Shown: positions 38,370 to 62,626 of the stretch, piece after piece
Position numbering within the stretch: position 1 is the first letter of the stretch
How the letters are laid out: every line of letters starts with the position of its first letter
DNA from: Spiribacter salinus M19-40
GTDB lineage: Bacteria; Pseudomonadota; Gammaproteobacteria; Nitrococcales; Nitrococcaceae
Reading direction: 5' to 3'
Assembly: GCF_000319575.2 (NCBI RefSeq)
Contig: NC_021291.1
Coordinates: 1,644,501-1,708,500, forward strand
Length of the DNA stretch: 64,000 nt
The notes under the pieces: generated by a model
What the model saw: only the letters and a program-made list of their open reading frames with translations
Databases searched by the model: none
What the model was told of the DNA's origin: nothing
Position numbers and translations under genes: made by a program

Positions 38370-38566
38370 CTAAGGTTACCTGCGGCGTTCGATGACGGGC
38401 ATTTTGCATTCTTGACCCTACAATCATGCGCCTCAGGGGAGACGTTGGTAGTGGTGCTGGTGTGCACGTCCGCCTCTGGCGGAAAGCCTAAGGCATCACT
38501 CGCCCTCCCCGACCTGAACCAGAGGGTTCAAGGGCGTTGTCCGAACGGCGCTGTGGGTAACCGCTA
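38370..38566 (+). ncRNA. ssrS: 6S RNA
   Basis: 6S RNA mimics an open promoter and holds sigma-70 RNA polymerase in stationary phase. The gap between zapA and fau is its conserved location. The 3' half contains GACCTGAACCAGAGGGTTCA followed by AGGG, close to the E. coli segment ACCTTGAACCAAGGGTTCA, and GTCCGCCTCTGGCGGAAAGC then CTAAGG, like E. coli GTCCGTCCGAGAAGCCTTAA. Closing arms GGTTACC (38374-38380) and GGTAACC (38556-38562), extended inward by CGTTCG/CGAACG, delimit about 190 nt. Exact ends are estimated. Read-through into fau is likely. Confidence 0.85.
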
Positions 38567-43659: not shown

Positions 43660-43702
43660 GGACACCCACCAACAGATCGGATAGGATTCGTGGGTGTCCA
43701 GT
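43660..43702. repeat. Inverted pair of the repeat between lgt and thyA
   Basis: GGACACCCAC (43660-43669) and GTGGGTGTCC (43690-43699, full 13-mer to 43702) form a perfect 10-bp dyad with a 20-nt loop, 33 nt after the lgt stop. It could fold as a hairpin in the lgt-thyA transcript; there is no T-run after it. Confidence 0.8.
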
Positions 43703-43764
43703 ATTGGGCATCCATGTTTCTTTCAAAACTGACCAATCATCGACTTCAGGAACCCGACGCGACC

Positions 43765-58410: not shown

Positions 58411-59046
58411 CTATTCGGCGGCGATGTCCTTGGGGTAGAGACCGCGAACGTAGTTGGCGACAGCCTGGATTTCTTCATCCGTGAGGTTTGAGGCGATGTC
58501 GTTCATGACACCAGCCTGGCCGTAACCGGCGCGCTCTCCGGAGCGATACAGACCGAGCTGATCCGTGGTGTACTGAACTTTCTGCCCGCTCAGGCGCGGG
58601 TAACCGCTGCCGGGCACGCCAAGGCCTGCTGGGCCGTGACAGCTCACGCAGGCCGGCACCCCTTTCTCGGCAATACCGCCCATGTAAATGCTACGCCCCG
58701 TAGCGAGCAATTCCTCCGGCGTCTCGCCAACCTCGGGCTCGAGGCCCTCGAAGTAGACCGCAAGATCCGCCATGGTCTGCTTGTCCAATCCAGCGGCCTG
58801 CCCCAGCATCAGCGCATTTTCGCGCTCACCGGATTTGTAGTACTGAAGATGCTCATAAATGTAGTCGGCGTGCTGGCCCGCCAGGTTGGGCCACTCCCCA
58901 TTATTGCTGTTGCCCTTCGCGCCATGGCATGCCGCACAGGCCGCGGCCGATTCCTCGCCACGCATGGGGTCCGCGTTGTCCAGTTGGGCAACAGCGGAGA
59001 AGCTGATGAAGCTAAGCAGAATCAGGGCAGCGATCTTGGGGGTCAT
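58411..59046 (-). CDS. Diheme cytochrome c4
   Basis: This 211-residue periplasmic electron carrier has a signal peptide (MTPKIAALILLSFISFSAVAQ) and two cytochrome c domains, each with a CXXCH heme site: CAACHGAKGN near residue 36 and CVSCHGPAGLG near 135. Axial Met candidates follow (ALMLGQAAGL; GVMNDIASNL). Duplicated domains of about 95 residues are typical of c4. It lies directly upstream of the genes that would attach its hemes and opposite engB, an arrangement common in gammaproteobacteria. Confidence 0.93.
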   Translation of the reverse strand: MTPKIAALILLSFISFSAVAQLDNADPMRGEESAAACAACHGAKGNSNNGEWPNLAGQHADYIYEHLQYYKSGERENALMLGQAAGLDKQTMADLAVYFEGLEPEVGETPEELLATGRSIYMGGIAEKGVPACVSCHGPAGLGVPGSGYPRLSGQKVQYTTDQLGLYRSGERAGYGQAGVMNDIASNLTDEEIQAVANYVRGLYPKDIAAE

Positions 59047-59126
59047 GTAACAAAACTCTCGAGTACAATCCTGTGATTTATACCAACGGGCCCGTAAGGG
59101 GTCAATTTCCGCCGGGGTGCGATTTC

Positions 59127-59732
59127 ATGCCGCTTGACTACCGCCAGGCTCATTTTCTGCTCTCCGCCGCGGAGCCTTCCCAATTACCCGTGGATGAGGG
59201 GGCTGAGGTGGCGTTTGCCGGGCGCTCGAACGCCGGTAAATCCAGTGCCCTGAATGCCATCACCGATCAACGTCAACTCGCTCGGGTCAGCAAGACGCCG
59301 GGGCGGACTCAGCAGATCAACGTGTTTCCAATCCTGGACACCCACCGATTGATCGACTTACCCGGCTATGGCTACGCAAAGGCGCCAGCGGCGATGCGCA
59401 CGCACTGGCAAAAGGCCCTGCCGGAGTATCTGGAAAACCGCCGCAGCCTGCGTGGCCTGGTCCTGATCATGGATATCCGCCACCCGCTCGGACCGCTGGA
59501 TGAGCAGATGGTGGTGTGGGCGGCAGCCGCTGAGTTGCCCGTCCATGTCCTGCTCAACAAGGCCGACAAACTAAGCCGGGGGGCGGCAGGAAATACCCTT
59601 CAGGCGGTTCGCCCGAAGGTCATCGCACACTGCCCTGGTAGCAGCGTGCAGCTTTTCTCCGCGCAGACGCGCCAGGGGGTGAGTGATGCACGCACCAAAC
59701 TCGACGAATGGCTGCTCGGCGGTCTGAAATAA
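59127..59732 (+). CDS. engB: Ribosome-biogenesis GTPase EngB (YsxC/YihA)
   Basis: EngB is an essential GTPase for 50S subunit assembly. The 201-residue protein has G1 (AFAGRSNAGKSSALNAI), G3 (LIDLPGYGYAKAP), G4 (VLLNKADKLSRG) and G5 (VQLFSAQTRQGV). ATG 59127 gives the family N-terminus (MPLDYRQAHFLLSAAEPSQLP); upstream in-frame starts would overlap the cytochrome c4 promoter. Residues ILDTHRLIDLPG carry a core repeat copy (59335-59345) right before G3. It faces polA, as in E. coli. Confidence 0.95.
   Translation: MPLDYRQAHFLLSAAEPSQLPVDEGAEVAFAGRSNAGKSSALNAITDQRQLARVSKTPGRTQQINVFPILDTHRLIDLPGYGYAKAPAAMRTHWQKALPEYLENRRSLRGLVLIMDIRHPLGPLDEQMVVWAAAAELPVHVLLNKADKLSRGAAGNTLQAVRPKVIAHCPGSSVQLFSAQTRQGVSDARTKLDEWLLGGLK
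59335..59345 (-). repeat. GTGGGTGTCCA core copy (in engB)
   Basis: Exact 11-mer on the minus strand; encodes Leu-Asp-Thr-His next to the G3 motif of EngB. Confidence 0.75.
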
Positions 59733-59767
59733 AAAACCCCGAAGGCCATGGGGTGTGGCCTTCGGGG
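59731..59767 (-). terminator. Rho-independent terminator facing from polA
   Basis: CCCCGAAGGCC and GGCCTTCGGGG (59737-59767) form a perfect 11-bp stem with a 9-nt loop. Read on the minus strand it is followed at once by TTTTTTAT (59736 downwards), a classical intrinsic terminator for polA or for a small RNA in the gap. The T-run overlaps the engB stop. It has no T-run in the plus direction. Confidence 0.85.
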
Positions 59768-59884
59768 ACGATGGACCCGGCCTTGGGGGCGGGGCCGGAT
59801 CCCATGGCCCGCTAAAAGGGAGGGAATAGCGGGCCGCGCCGGGCACTGGCGCGAATACTGTGACACCACGCTTTTGGGTAGAGT
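59731..59884 (-). ncRNA. Candidate small RNA in the polA-engB gap (Spot 42/ErsA position)
   Basis: This 150-nt gap between convergent polA and engB is where E. coli carries spf (Spot 42) and Pseudomonas ErsA. On the minus strand it holds a hairpin GGCCCGCTA/TAGCGGGCC (59806-59835), a second GC-rich stem around 59772-59803, and the strong terminator hairpin with six Ts. I see no sequence match to Spot 42 that I could state firmly, and no clear promoter. It may instead be only a structured polA 3' end. Confidence 0.3.
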
Positions 59885-62626
59885 TCAGTGGGCATCGTCC
59901 CAATTTTCTCCGACCCCGATTTCCACCTCCAGCGGCACATCCAGCGACGCGGCCTCGGCCATGAAGCCGCGAATCCGTTCAGCGACGTCCTGAACCTGGC
60001 TGTCCAGTACTTCGAGCACGAGCTCGTCGTGGACCTGCATAACAAGGGCCGTGCCAGGCGACTCAGCGGTAATCCACGCGTCCACTGCAATCATGGCCCG
60101 CTTGATGATGTCGGCTGCGGTACCTTGCATCGGCGCGTTGATCGCGGTGCGTTCGGCATATTGCCGACGCTGATTGTTGCGGCTGTTGATCTCCGGTACG
60201 TAAAGGCGACGGCCATCCACGGTTTCCACATAACCCTGCTGGCGCGCGGTTTCGCGAGTCCGGTCCATGAAGGCACGGACACCGGGGTAGCGCTCGAAAT
60301 ACCGATCGACATAACGCTGCGCCTCGCCACGCTCAATATTGAGCTGACGCGCCAGCCCCCAGGCCGACATCCCATAGATCAAGCCGAAATTGATGGCCTT
60401 GGCTGCGCGACGCTGATCCGCTGTTACAGCCTCGGCGCTCGTCCCAAAGACCTCGGCCGCCGTCGCGGCGTGGATGTCCTGTCCTTCGGCGAACGCGCGT
60501 TTGAGCCCCTCATCACCGGACAGGTGCGCCATGATGCGCAACTCAACCTGGGAGTAGTCTGCCGCCATGAGCCGATGGCCTTCGGCCGGAATGAAAGCGC
60601 GGCGAATGCGCCGGCCGGCCGCGCTACGCACCGGGATGTTCTGGAGATTGGGATCGGACGATGACAACCGCCCGGTCGCCGTAATCGCCTGGTGATAAGA
60701 GGTGTGCACCCGTCCGGTGTTCGGGTTGATGAGTGTCGGCAACTTGTCCGTGTAGGTCGAGCGCAGCTTCGAGACGCCCCGGTAATCGAGAATTAATTGC
60801 GGTAGCTCATGGCCCTGAGCCGCCAATTCCTCAAGCACAGACTCGGCGGTTGAAGGGGCGCCCTTCGGCGTTTTCGAGAGCACTGGCAGGCCCTGACGCT
60901 CATAAAGGATCTCCTGAATCTGCTTTGGAGAGCCCAGATTGAATGGCCCGCCCGCCGCCCCATACGCCTGGGCTTCCAGCTGCTGCATGGTCTCGGCGAG
61001 TTCCCGGCTCTGGACACCCAACAATTCGGCGTCGACGCGGACGCCCGTGCGTTCGATCCGCGAGAGGACAGGCAGCAGCGGGATCTCAATCGATTCATAA
61101 ATCGACCGAGGCCCCGCCTGCTCAGCGAGCCGCGGCCAGAGGTGCTCATGGAGACGCAGAGCAACATCGGCATCTTCGGCCGCATAGTCCGTCGCCTCGG
61201 CCAGCGCAACCTGATCAAAGGTGATTTGCTTGGCGCCCTTGCCCGCCACTTGCTCATAGCTAATCGGCTGATAGCCAAGGTACTTACTGGCCAGCGTATC
61301 CATGTCGTGACGATTCGCCGTGGCGTCCAGGCAGTACGACTCCAGCATCGTGTCATGCACCACGCCGCGCAGCGTAATCCCGTGGTTCGCGAGCACGCTG
61401 GTGTCGTACTTGAGGTTTTGGCCCAGTTTGTGGGTGTCCAGTTTCTCGAGCAGCGGGCGCAGACGCTCAAGCGTCGCGTCGCGATCCAACTGCTGCGGCT
61501 GATCCGGCCCGGCATGCGCCAGTGGCAAGTAGGCCGCCTCTCCCGATTTAACGGCGAACGAGGCGCCAACAATCCGGGCCTCCATGTAATTCAGGCTGTC
61601 AGTCTCGAGATCAAACGCAAACACCTCCGCGGCCTCGAGTCGCGTGATCCACTCATCCAGCGTCGCCTGGTCCTGGATGCAGCTGTAGTGCGCGCTTGGC
61701 GCTGCCGGATTGTGGGTGTCCAGTAACTCACCCTCTGAGTGATCAGGGGATGTCTGGGTGTCCACTACCGTTGGATCAACCTCTCGAAGCCAGGCGTTAA
61801 AACCAAAGCGACGGAAGAGCTGGGTGAGGGCTTCGAAATCTGGATCGGCGACTTTCAGATCGCCCGGCGTTACCGGGAGCTCGACATCGCAGTGAATCGT
61901 GGCGAGCTGGCGGGAGAGATCAAGCGCATCCAGATGTTCTCGGAGGCTCTCTCCAACCTTACCAGCAATCTCATCCGCGCGATCGCGAACCGCGTCGAGG
62001 GAGCCATACTGGTTCAGCCATTTCGCCGCCGTTTTCGGACCGACCTTGGGGACGCCCGGAATATTGTCTGAGGTATCCCCAACGAGCGCCAGGTAGTCGA
62101 TAATGCGCTCTGGTGGAACTCCGAATTTCTCCACCACGGCATCATGGTCCAGCACGGTATTGGACATGGTGTTCAGCAAGGTGACATCGCCATTCACCAG
62201 CTGGGCCATGTCCTTGTCGCCGGTGGAAATCACCAGCTCCATGCCGGCCGACCGGCCACGGACCGCCAATGTGCCAATTACATCGTCAGCCTCAACACCG
62301 CCGACTTCCACAAGCGGTAACCCCATCGCGATCACGGCCTTTTTTAGCGGCTTGATCTGAGCCGCGAGGTCCTCCGGCATCGATGGGCGATTGGCCTTGT
62401 ACTCAGCGAACAGCTCATCGCGGAACGTCTTCCCCGGCGCATCGAACACGACCCCCATGTAAATCGGCTCGTAATCGGCCACCAGGCGACGCAGCATGCT
62501 GATCACCCCGTATATGGCACCCGTTGGGTCACCCTCTGCGCTCGTGAGGGGCGGAAGTGCATGGTAGGCGCGGTACAAGTAAGACGAGCCGTCCACCAGC
62601 AGCAGACGTTTCTCGGAACTGGTCAT
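59885..62626 (-). CDS. polA: DNA polymerase I
   Basis: PolA fills gaps and removes RNA primers. The 913-residue protein (E. coli 928) has the 5' nuclease (LLLVDGSSYLYRAYHALPPL; GVEADDVIGTLAV; residues 1-300), a 3'-5' exonuclease with intact acidic residues (FAFDLETDSLNYMEARIVG, about 330-500) and the polymerase: motif A DYSQVELRIMAHLSGDEGL, motif B RRAAKAINFGLIYGMS, motif C MQVHDELVLEV. It contains four copies or variants of the repeated word (61011, 61430, 61712, 61756), two of them in the linker between nuclease and exonuclease domains. Confidence 0.98.
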   Translation of the reverse strand: MTSSEKRLLLVDGSSYLYRAYHALPPLTSAEGDPTGAIYGVISMLRRLVADYEPIYMGVVFDAPGKTFRDELFAEYKANRPSMPEDLAAQIKPLKKAVIAMGLPLVEVGGVEADDVIGTLAVRGRSAGMELVISTGDKDMAQLVNGDVTLLNTMSNTVLDHDAVVEKFGVPPERIIDYLALVGDTSDNIPGVPKVGPKTAAKWLNQYGSLDAVRDRADEIAGKVGESLREHLDALDLSRQLATIHCDVELPVTPGDLKVADPDFEALTQLFRRFGFNAWLREVDPTVVDTQTSPDHSEGELLDTHNPAAPSAHYSCIQDQATLDEWITRLEAAEVFAFDLETDSLNYMEARIVGASFAVKSGEAAYLPLAHAGPDQPQQLDRDATLERLRPLLEKLDTHKLGQNLKYDTSVLANHGITLRGVVHDTMLESYCLDATANRHDMDTLASKYLGYQPISYEQVAGKGAKQITFDQVALAEATDYAAEDADVALRLHEHLWPRLAEQAGPRSIYESIEIPLLPVLSRIERTGVRVDAELLGVQSRELAETMQQLEAQAYGAAGGPFNLGSPKQIQEILYERQGLPVLSKTPKGAPSTAESVLEELAAQGHELPQLILDYRGVSKLRSTYTDKLPTLINPNTGRVHTSYHQAITATGRLSSSDPNLQNIPVRSAAGRRIRRAFIPAEGHRLMAADYSQVELRIMAHLSGDEGLKRAFAEGQDIHAATAAEVFGTSAEAVTADQRRAAKAINFGLIYGMSAWGLARQLNIERGEAQRYVDRYFERYPGVRAFMDRTRETARQQGYVETVDGRRLYVPEINSRNNQRRQYAERTAINAPMQGTAADIIKRAMIAVDAWITAESPGTALVMQVHDELVLEVLDSQVQDVAERIRGFMAEAASLDVPLEVEIGVGENWDDAH
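61011..61021 (-). repeat. Repeat variant TGGACACCCAA (in polA)
   Basis: One mismatch to the core (last base A instead of C), read as Leu-Gly-Val-Gln on the polA strand. Confidence 0.5.
61430..61442 (+). repeat. GTGGGTGTCCAGT repeat copy (in polA)
   Basis: Exact 13-mer; encodes Leu-Asp-Thr-His (EKLDTHKLGQ) in the exonuclease domain. Confidence 0.85.
61712..61724 (+). repeat. GTGGGTGTCCAGT repeat copy (in polA linker)
   Basis: Exact 13-mer; encodes Leu-Asp-Thr-His in the variable linker of PolA. Confidence 0.85.
61754..61764 (+). repeat. Repeat variant CTGGGTGTCCA (in polA linker)
   Basis: One mismatch to the core, 42 nt from the preceding exact copy and in the same orientation; encodes Val-Asp-Thr-Gln. 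Confidence 0.55.

Follow-up and report, generated by a model that had tools for sequence, protein, structure and literature searches.

Why does the gap between polA and engB keep yielding small RNAs, and does it hold one in Spiribacter salinus M19-40? The first of these questions was left open by the authors of sX13, who saw that the locus of their sRNA is shared with Spot 42 and α-r7, and raised the question of whether other polA loci also harbour sRNAs (PMC3771888). The second is addressed here for a 64,000-nt stretch (the window) of a genome that consists of a single contig of 1.74 Mb and is 100% complete. A preliminary description, made from the letters of the window, had placed a hairpin-rich polA–engB gap at 59731-59884 and proposed a discrete small RNA within it. 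Those limits are correct: read directly, the stop codon of polA (TGA) lies at 59885-59887 and that of engB (TAA) at 59730-59732, and the gap between the convergent genes is 152 nt. Nearly all of it is used on the polA strand, by a GAACTC box, 16 nt, a GTCACA box and a predicted RNA of 122 nt, as follows:

59073..59732, plus strand: engB/yihA, GTPase gene, the convergent neighbour, whose place is conserved in relatives
59731..59852, minus strand: sX13-type small RNA gene of about 122 nt, predicted from Rfam RF02232, models R1 and R2 (see below) and covariation
59731..59736, minus strand: six-U terminator tail, sharing positions with the engB stop codon (TAA, 59730-59732)
59737..59767, minus strand: hairpin H4, the terminator stem, with a CCCC-bearing loop (folding, terminator scan)
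59773..59802, minus strand: hairpin H3, GC-rich, with a CCCCC-bearing loop (folding, covariation)
59806..59835, minus strand: hairpin H2, with the loop TTCCCTCCCTTT, which bears an anti-Shine-Dalgarno-like CCTCC (folding, covariation)
59836..59852, minus strand: hairpin H1, GCGCC-AGTGCCC-GGCGC, nearly invariant in the order
59859..59864, minus strand: putative -10 element GTCACA, 16 nt past the -35 element (sequence read, pattern search)
59881..59886, minus strand: putative -35 element GAACTC of a σE/RpoE-type promoter (sequence read; same place in relatives)
59885..62626, minus strand: polA, the same-strand neighbour upstream of the RNA, through which homologous loci were found by protein search

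The layout is compact at both ends: GAACTC begins on the final two bases of the polA stop codon, and two bases of the engB stop codon have their complement in the six-U tail. The 5' end of the RNA is put at about 59852, a prediction based on the promoter together with H1, the conserved hairpin at that end. On the minus strand, the whole gap folds at -75.6 kcal/mol versus -54.6 in shuffles (z -5.6), and positions 59730-59850 at -67.2 versus -47.5 (z -6.3); in both cases, none of 200 shuffles is as stable. The GC-rich hairpins and strong six-T terminator of the preliminary description are indeed present, as a small 5' hairpin (H1), two GC-rich hairpins (H2 and H3) and a 12-bp terminator stem (H4), nine of whose pairs are G-C and which is followed by TTTTTT in the polA direction; there is no T-run in the engB direction of this hairpin. 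Likewise, the claim that the terminator stands out is borne out by scans of the whole window, as H4 has the most G-C pairs among the sites listed, together with a full U-tract, and the sole other 12-pair stem among those sites (43689-43716) has six G-C pairs.

The structure of the RNA is under selection. In the order, polA was found in 52 of 54 genomes (22 of 23 in the family), and 53 polA loci were read: 36 have the RNA with its conserved 5' hairpin, two have a divergent RNA (L052 and L063, of which L052, the one scored, gives 44.2 bits), and one has a gap of six bases (L042). At the remaining 14 loci, the sequence read past polA contained neither engB nor the RNA; one of these genomes (G028) has the RNA by engB, some 31 kb from polA (L016). 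When convergent polA–engB gaps were read without a filter for the H1 motif, H1 was present in 32 of 35, the remaining three being the two divergent RNAs and the gap without room. The 36 RNAs were picked through an H1-containing motif and aligned without a model (alignment A1, as also A2), so that the invariance of H1 in A1 is partly by construction. Across them, 91.1% of cells are paired, a value that falls to about 45% when the partners are slid by one base; 28 of the 36 pairs show double changes in at least one sequence, and doubly changed cells number 139 versus 48 in shuffles. Even among 21 closer relatives, 19 of 36 pairs show double changes. Alignments A3-A6 were fitted to a model, and pair counts on A4 therefore lean to its structure; in the covariation test on 109 relatives across the class, made on a model-fitted alignment, there are 714 doubly changed cells versus 186. 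Hairpins without covariation in relatives, which the preliminary description had named as a finding that would tell against a small RNA, are thus the reverse of what the locus displays.

Upstream of the RNA, the order relatives carry GAACTT/C, 16-17 nt and GTCA/T, which is the form of σE promoters. The pattern is present in 29 of the 36; four Spiribacter-group copies fail at the -10 (GTCC or GTCG), and L039, L053 and L060 fail at the -35. In most Spiribacter-group genomes the -35 box begins within the polA stop codon (TGAACT). As a bare pattern, GAACTY-N16-GTCW is not enriched genome-wide (seven sites versus 16 in the reversed control), so the case for the promoter rests on its conservation. 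The genome encodes both RpoE and Hfq: there is one match to RpoE, over cut-off at 311 bits, and Hfq is also over cut-off. The host rpoE gene (L199) itself has GAACTT-N15-GTCA upstream and, by eye, RseA/RseB-like ORFs downstream.

Conservation of both RNA and promoter extends across the class. A covariance model built from the window's order alone (R1) has matches at E ≤ 0.001 in 100 of the 369 class genomes sampled, representing 82 of 272 genera; two of these are training genomes (G000 and G015), and the other 98 genomes yield 100 loci. Eighty-eight of these loci adjoin polA and/or engB (52 both, 14 polA only, 22 engB only), and 12 adjoin neither. Among the 111 RNA matches at these loci, 52 share the direction of polA and oppose engB, 27 have only engB beside them and 14 only polA, five are inverted and 13 are by neither. 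The σE-type pattern lies upstream of 62 of the 111 (49 fail), versus a mean of 0.97 and a maximum of four in shuffles; its spacing is 16 nt in 54 of the 62, and GAACT most often stands 35 nt before the RNA. A second model, R2, was built from 109 matches, which come from 14 loci of the order and 86 syntenic loci of the class, with the sX13 and ErsA loci left out; the window RNA helped to train both models, and scores 122.4 bits with R1 and 103.8 bits with R2. R2 matches 186 of the 369 class genomes and 143 of the 272 genera, counts that include its training genomes, among them those of the 86 class loci; 87 of the 186 lie outside R1's 100. From these 87 genomes, 40 loci were held out for inspection, being the better-scoring among the matches listed and not a random draw: 27 lie by polA and/or engB (13 by neither), and the promoter pattern is upstream of 33 of 44 matches (11 fail), versus a mean of 0.32 and a maximum of two in shuffles, after two of 46 matches with short upstream sequence had been dropped. 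Neither synteny nor promoter is part of R2; nonetheless, its matches outside the training set fall at the locus and with the promoter, as expected of a family.

A scan of 84,980 species genomes for an extended H1 motif gave 62 stretches. Twenty-three of these hold R2 matches (24 RNAs, 21 of which are preceded by the promoter pattern, and many of which are the same loci as in A1), in records labelled Spiribacter, Nitrococcus, Alkalilimnicola, Aquisalimonas, Arhodomonas, Methylonatrum, Ectothiorhodospiraceae and plain Gammaproteobacteria; the other 39, for example in Streptomyces, are R2-negative and look like chance. In a phylum-wide scan at E ≤ 1e-4, R2 has matches in 17 of 378 genomes. Sixteen of these genomes belong to the window's class, to which we limit the family claim; the one match outside it in that sample is L331 (G654), at 46.9 bits.

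How does this RNA relate to those already named? At gathering thresholds, Rfam has two matches in the window: a 6S RNA (38374-38563, plus strand, 74.8 bits) and sX13 (RF02232), which is matched at 59730-59847 on the minus strand over the full model length, with 50.2 bits against a cut-off of 50. Taken alone, the sX13 match would be weak: the margin of 0.2 bits is narrow, the window's own genome is the one in 59 order genomes scanned that passes, and in 22 other genomes of the genus or family the model scores below cut-off (14) or has no match at E ≤ 0.01 (eight, in six of which the RNA was seen by reading the locus). It is, however, accompanied by further likenesses. Like the window RNA, sX13 of Xanthomonas is encoded downstream of polA, and its Rfam model combines a small 5' hairpin with three main ones whose apical loops are C-rich; the three stable C-rich-loop stems that characterize sX13 are all found in the window. 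Moreover, recognition by the models is reciprocal: R2, although trained without sX13 loci, gives 50.6-54.7 bits to the three other class loci that exceed the sX13 cut-off. The points of difference are taxonomic and at the promoter: the window RNA belongs to another order of the class than the strong sX13 loci, whereas sX13 was described in 2013 as exclusive to Xanthomonadaceae (PMC3771888), and sX13 loci have, by eye, a degraded promoter (GAACC at the -35, no clean GTC at the -10), whereas that of the window RNA is clearly of σE type. The 2013 range looks too narrow, and models, site and structure together suggest that the window RNA is kin to sX13. As a single gene, this would be a new, out-of-family member of the sX13 type; as a family, it would be more.

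The preliminary description had referred the gap to the Spot 42/ErsA locus and proposed a search with both covariance models. The site is indeed the same, but the best named match is sX13 and neither of these two: at relaxed thresholds ErsA (RF01719) reaches 28.0 bits against a cut-off of 50, and the spf model finds nothing in the region at E values up to 1. Anti-hemB (RF02837) reaches 26.9 bits against 49.5, also at relaxed thresholds, and the remaining sub-threshold matches (6C, Scr4115, sX11 and RybB) may, in our reading, reflect mere likeness among GC-rich terminator RNAs.

For ErsA (Pseudomon-1), the evidence for family membership is mixed. In Pseudomonas it occupies the same polA–engB gap and its levels are triggered by σ22, and its 5' half is unlike that of the window RNA, with a U-rich unstructured stretch between the first two stem-loops (PMC8575079). 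The sole class locus over the ErsA cut-off, L180, follows polA and has GAACTT-N16-GTCATA, its 3' side forming C-rich hairpins. Both R1 (22.8 bits) and R2 (28.1 bits) match it at the right place, over only a short stretch and with filters off, and whole-genome R2 scans miss its genome and three others of the same family (G462, G466 and G470). The ErsA model has 12 more matches in the class, all below cut-off; eight fall on R1 places, and at two more (L183 and L188) both models match the locus with filters off. ErsA is best described as a remote match, at the same site and with a promoter of the same type.

Rfam itself picks out the RNA at 12 of the 100 R1 class loci, as sX13 in two and, over cut-off, as anti-hemB (Burkholderia RNA 7) in ten, nine of which adjoin polA or engB; loci matching either entry thus fall into the same R1/R2 set. 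For Burkholderia, tables list anti-hemB as a predicted RNA and as a biofilm transcript, and give no function (PMC3521395, PMC5688073). Among 18 ORFs neighbouring some of the copies, Pfam found no hemB; the neighbours are mixed, including cytochrome c and ResB at L149 and cytochrome c at L081 and L116. In the Rfam outputs, none of sX13, ErsA and anti-hemB has a clan. We consider it probable that these three and the window RNA are branches of one ancient sRNA of the σE regulon, fixed between polA and engB early in the Gammaproteobacteria (in the GTDB sense), and since then sometimes inverted, repeated in tandem up to four times, or moved.

Could the gap be read in other ways? Were it a plain polA terminator whose additional hairpins insulate the convergent genes, without a separate RNA, the convergence and the strength of the last hairpin in the polA direction would be accounted for. 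This is very unlikely, given that the hairpins upstream of the terminator covary just as the terminator does, that a σE-type promoter is conserved between polA and the RNA, that the RNA is inverted relative to polA in 12 of the 36 order relatives, that it is still by engB where polA is elsewhere (L016 and L100), and that it occurs in tandem copies, most of them with a promoter-like site of their own. Nor does a repeated element find support, as RF02232, R1 and R2 each match the genome once only. A mechanical ORF of 110 aa with a TTG start does span the region (59571-59903), and a short protein-coding gene, either this or a smaller one, was tried and rejected: none of the three frames stays open throughout the 36 relatives (they are open in 14, 27 and 24), the RNA lengths modulo 3 take all three values, complete ATG/GTG ORFs within the 36 RNAs reach at most 30 aa, and the changes are compensatory. 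We give it almost no credence.

Two readings grant a discrete RNA and concern its origin. It might be made by a housekeeping sigma factor or by processing of the 3' end of the polA mRNA, with the GAACTT-like motif coincidental: sRNAs derived from 3' UTRs are common, the -35 element coincides in part with the polA stop codon, the bare motif is not uncommon genome-wide and, as noted, it is degraded at loci over the sX13 cut-off. This seems unlikely, since the motif, its spacing and its distance to the RNA recur across the class, the majority of copies lying inverted or apart from polA have the motif as well, and no σ70-like site is present within 58500-61000, on which ground a σ70 promoter was rejected. 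Alternatively, the RNA might be the orthologue of Spot 42. The spf promoter is repressed by CRP, and the window RNA has a σE-type one instead; together with the missing model match, for which the candidate was rejected, this makes orthology highly improbable, for all that spf lies at the same site, between polA and yihA/engB, in Escherichia coli and Aliivibrio (PMC3295665). What Spot 42 and the window RNA have in common is the genomic gap.

Comparative evidence that a complete, discrete structured RNA gene occupies the polA–engB gap is, by contrast, very strong, because covariation, an Rfam match over cut-off and a conserved promoter of its own coincide; the small RNA proposed in the preliminary description is thereby supported, and its expression is predicted. 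As regards its action, the loops are suggestive. Across the 109 relatives, CCCC is present in the H3 loop of 95 (10 expected) and in the H4 loop of 80 (eight expected), and CCTCC in the H2 loop of 75; CCCC is not enriched in the loops of H2 (15 of 109, 10 expected) or H1 (four of 109, six expected), and the latter is not C-rich across the class. In Xanthomonas, hfq is a target of sX13, which represses mRNAs bearing 4G motifs. The C-rich loops of sX13 and G-rich motifs near start sites are needed for its repression of mRNAs, Hfq is not, and its levels rise with salt, at 37 °C and in the minimal medium MMA (PMC3771888); several ErsA targets need Hfq (PMC8575079). From the C-rich loops, the repression by sX13 and the link of ErsA to σ22, we infer a σE-induced repressor of G-rich start sites. 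RpoE would start transcription at the promoter that reaches into the polA stop codon with its -35; an RNA of about 122 nt with four hairpins would be made, ending at its own terminator, the U-tract of which runs into the engB stop codon; and this RNA would act in trans, its C-rich loops (CCCUCCC, GCCCCCAA and CACCCCA) pairing with G-rich motifs, Shine-Dalgarno or enhancer, close to start codons and so repressing translation during envelope stress. The loop mechanism is carried over from sX13, and the targets are putative. On balance, we think it likely that the gap encodes a σE-driven, trans-acting sRNA whose C-rich loops engage G-rich translation-initiation sites, and which is one branch of a class-wide family held by Rfam as unlinked entries.

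If this is true, three sRNAs that have been separately studied, or merely listed, would become one testable family with a common switch (RpoE) and a common C-rich-loop mechanism, and both sRNA and regulator would be predicted in scores of genera. The envelope-stress response would then have a translational arm spanning the class, so far overlooked because the Rfam entries are separate and belong to no clan. In many other proteobacteria, probable relatives occupy this locus, where they bear names that do not connect them, or none. A literature search, outside which most subscription papers lay, found no work joining any two of sX13, ErsA and anti-hemB; the literature on polA, engB and sRNAs that looks relevant comprises ErsA, Spot 42 and Erwinia work, and sX13 is mentioned together with sigma and rpoE in PMC4652430. 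A survey of structured RNAs in 26 genomes describes a proX motif in Spiribacter, with neither engB nor sX13 in its main text, and may list the present RNA in its supplements (PMC8632094).

Copy number and arrangement vary among the relatives. The 12 order relatives in which the RNA is inverted, running with engB towards polA, are L047-L051, L053, L054, L057-L060 and L074. Four tandem copies lie between polA and engB at L093 (G223) and L250 (G330), most with a σE-type promoter, and two adjacent copies are present at L100/L017 (G024), L116, L122, L128, L131, L139, L161, L167 and L226; most of the paired copies have their own σE-type site, and L226 has three matches, the third of them weak. Extra copies off the polA/engB locus, each with a σE-type promoter, are found in Alkalilimnicola ehrlichii AK92 (L317 and L266; three copies in the strain) and in Aquisalimonas lutea (L280 and L287; two copies in the strain). 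A second, weaker R2 match, at 38.8 bits, is L335 (G065:C22:263774-263874), in a genome that also has sX13 over cut-off. Finally, at eight loci of one family (L061, L065, L066, L069, L071-L073 and L075), polA is followed by a different, shared gene on the same strand, which by eye resembles a subunit of cytochrome bd oxidase.
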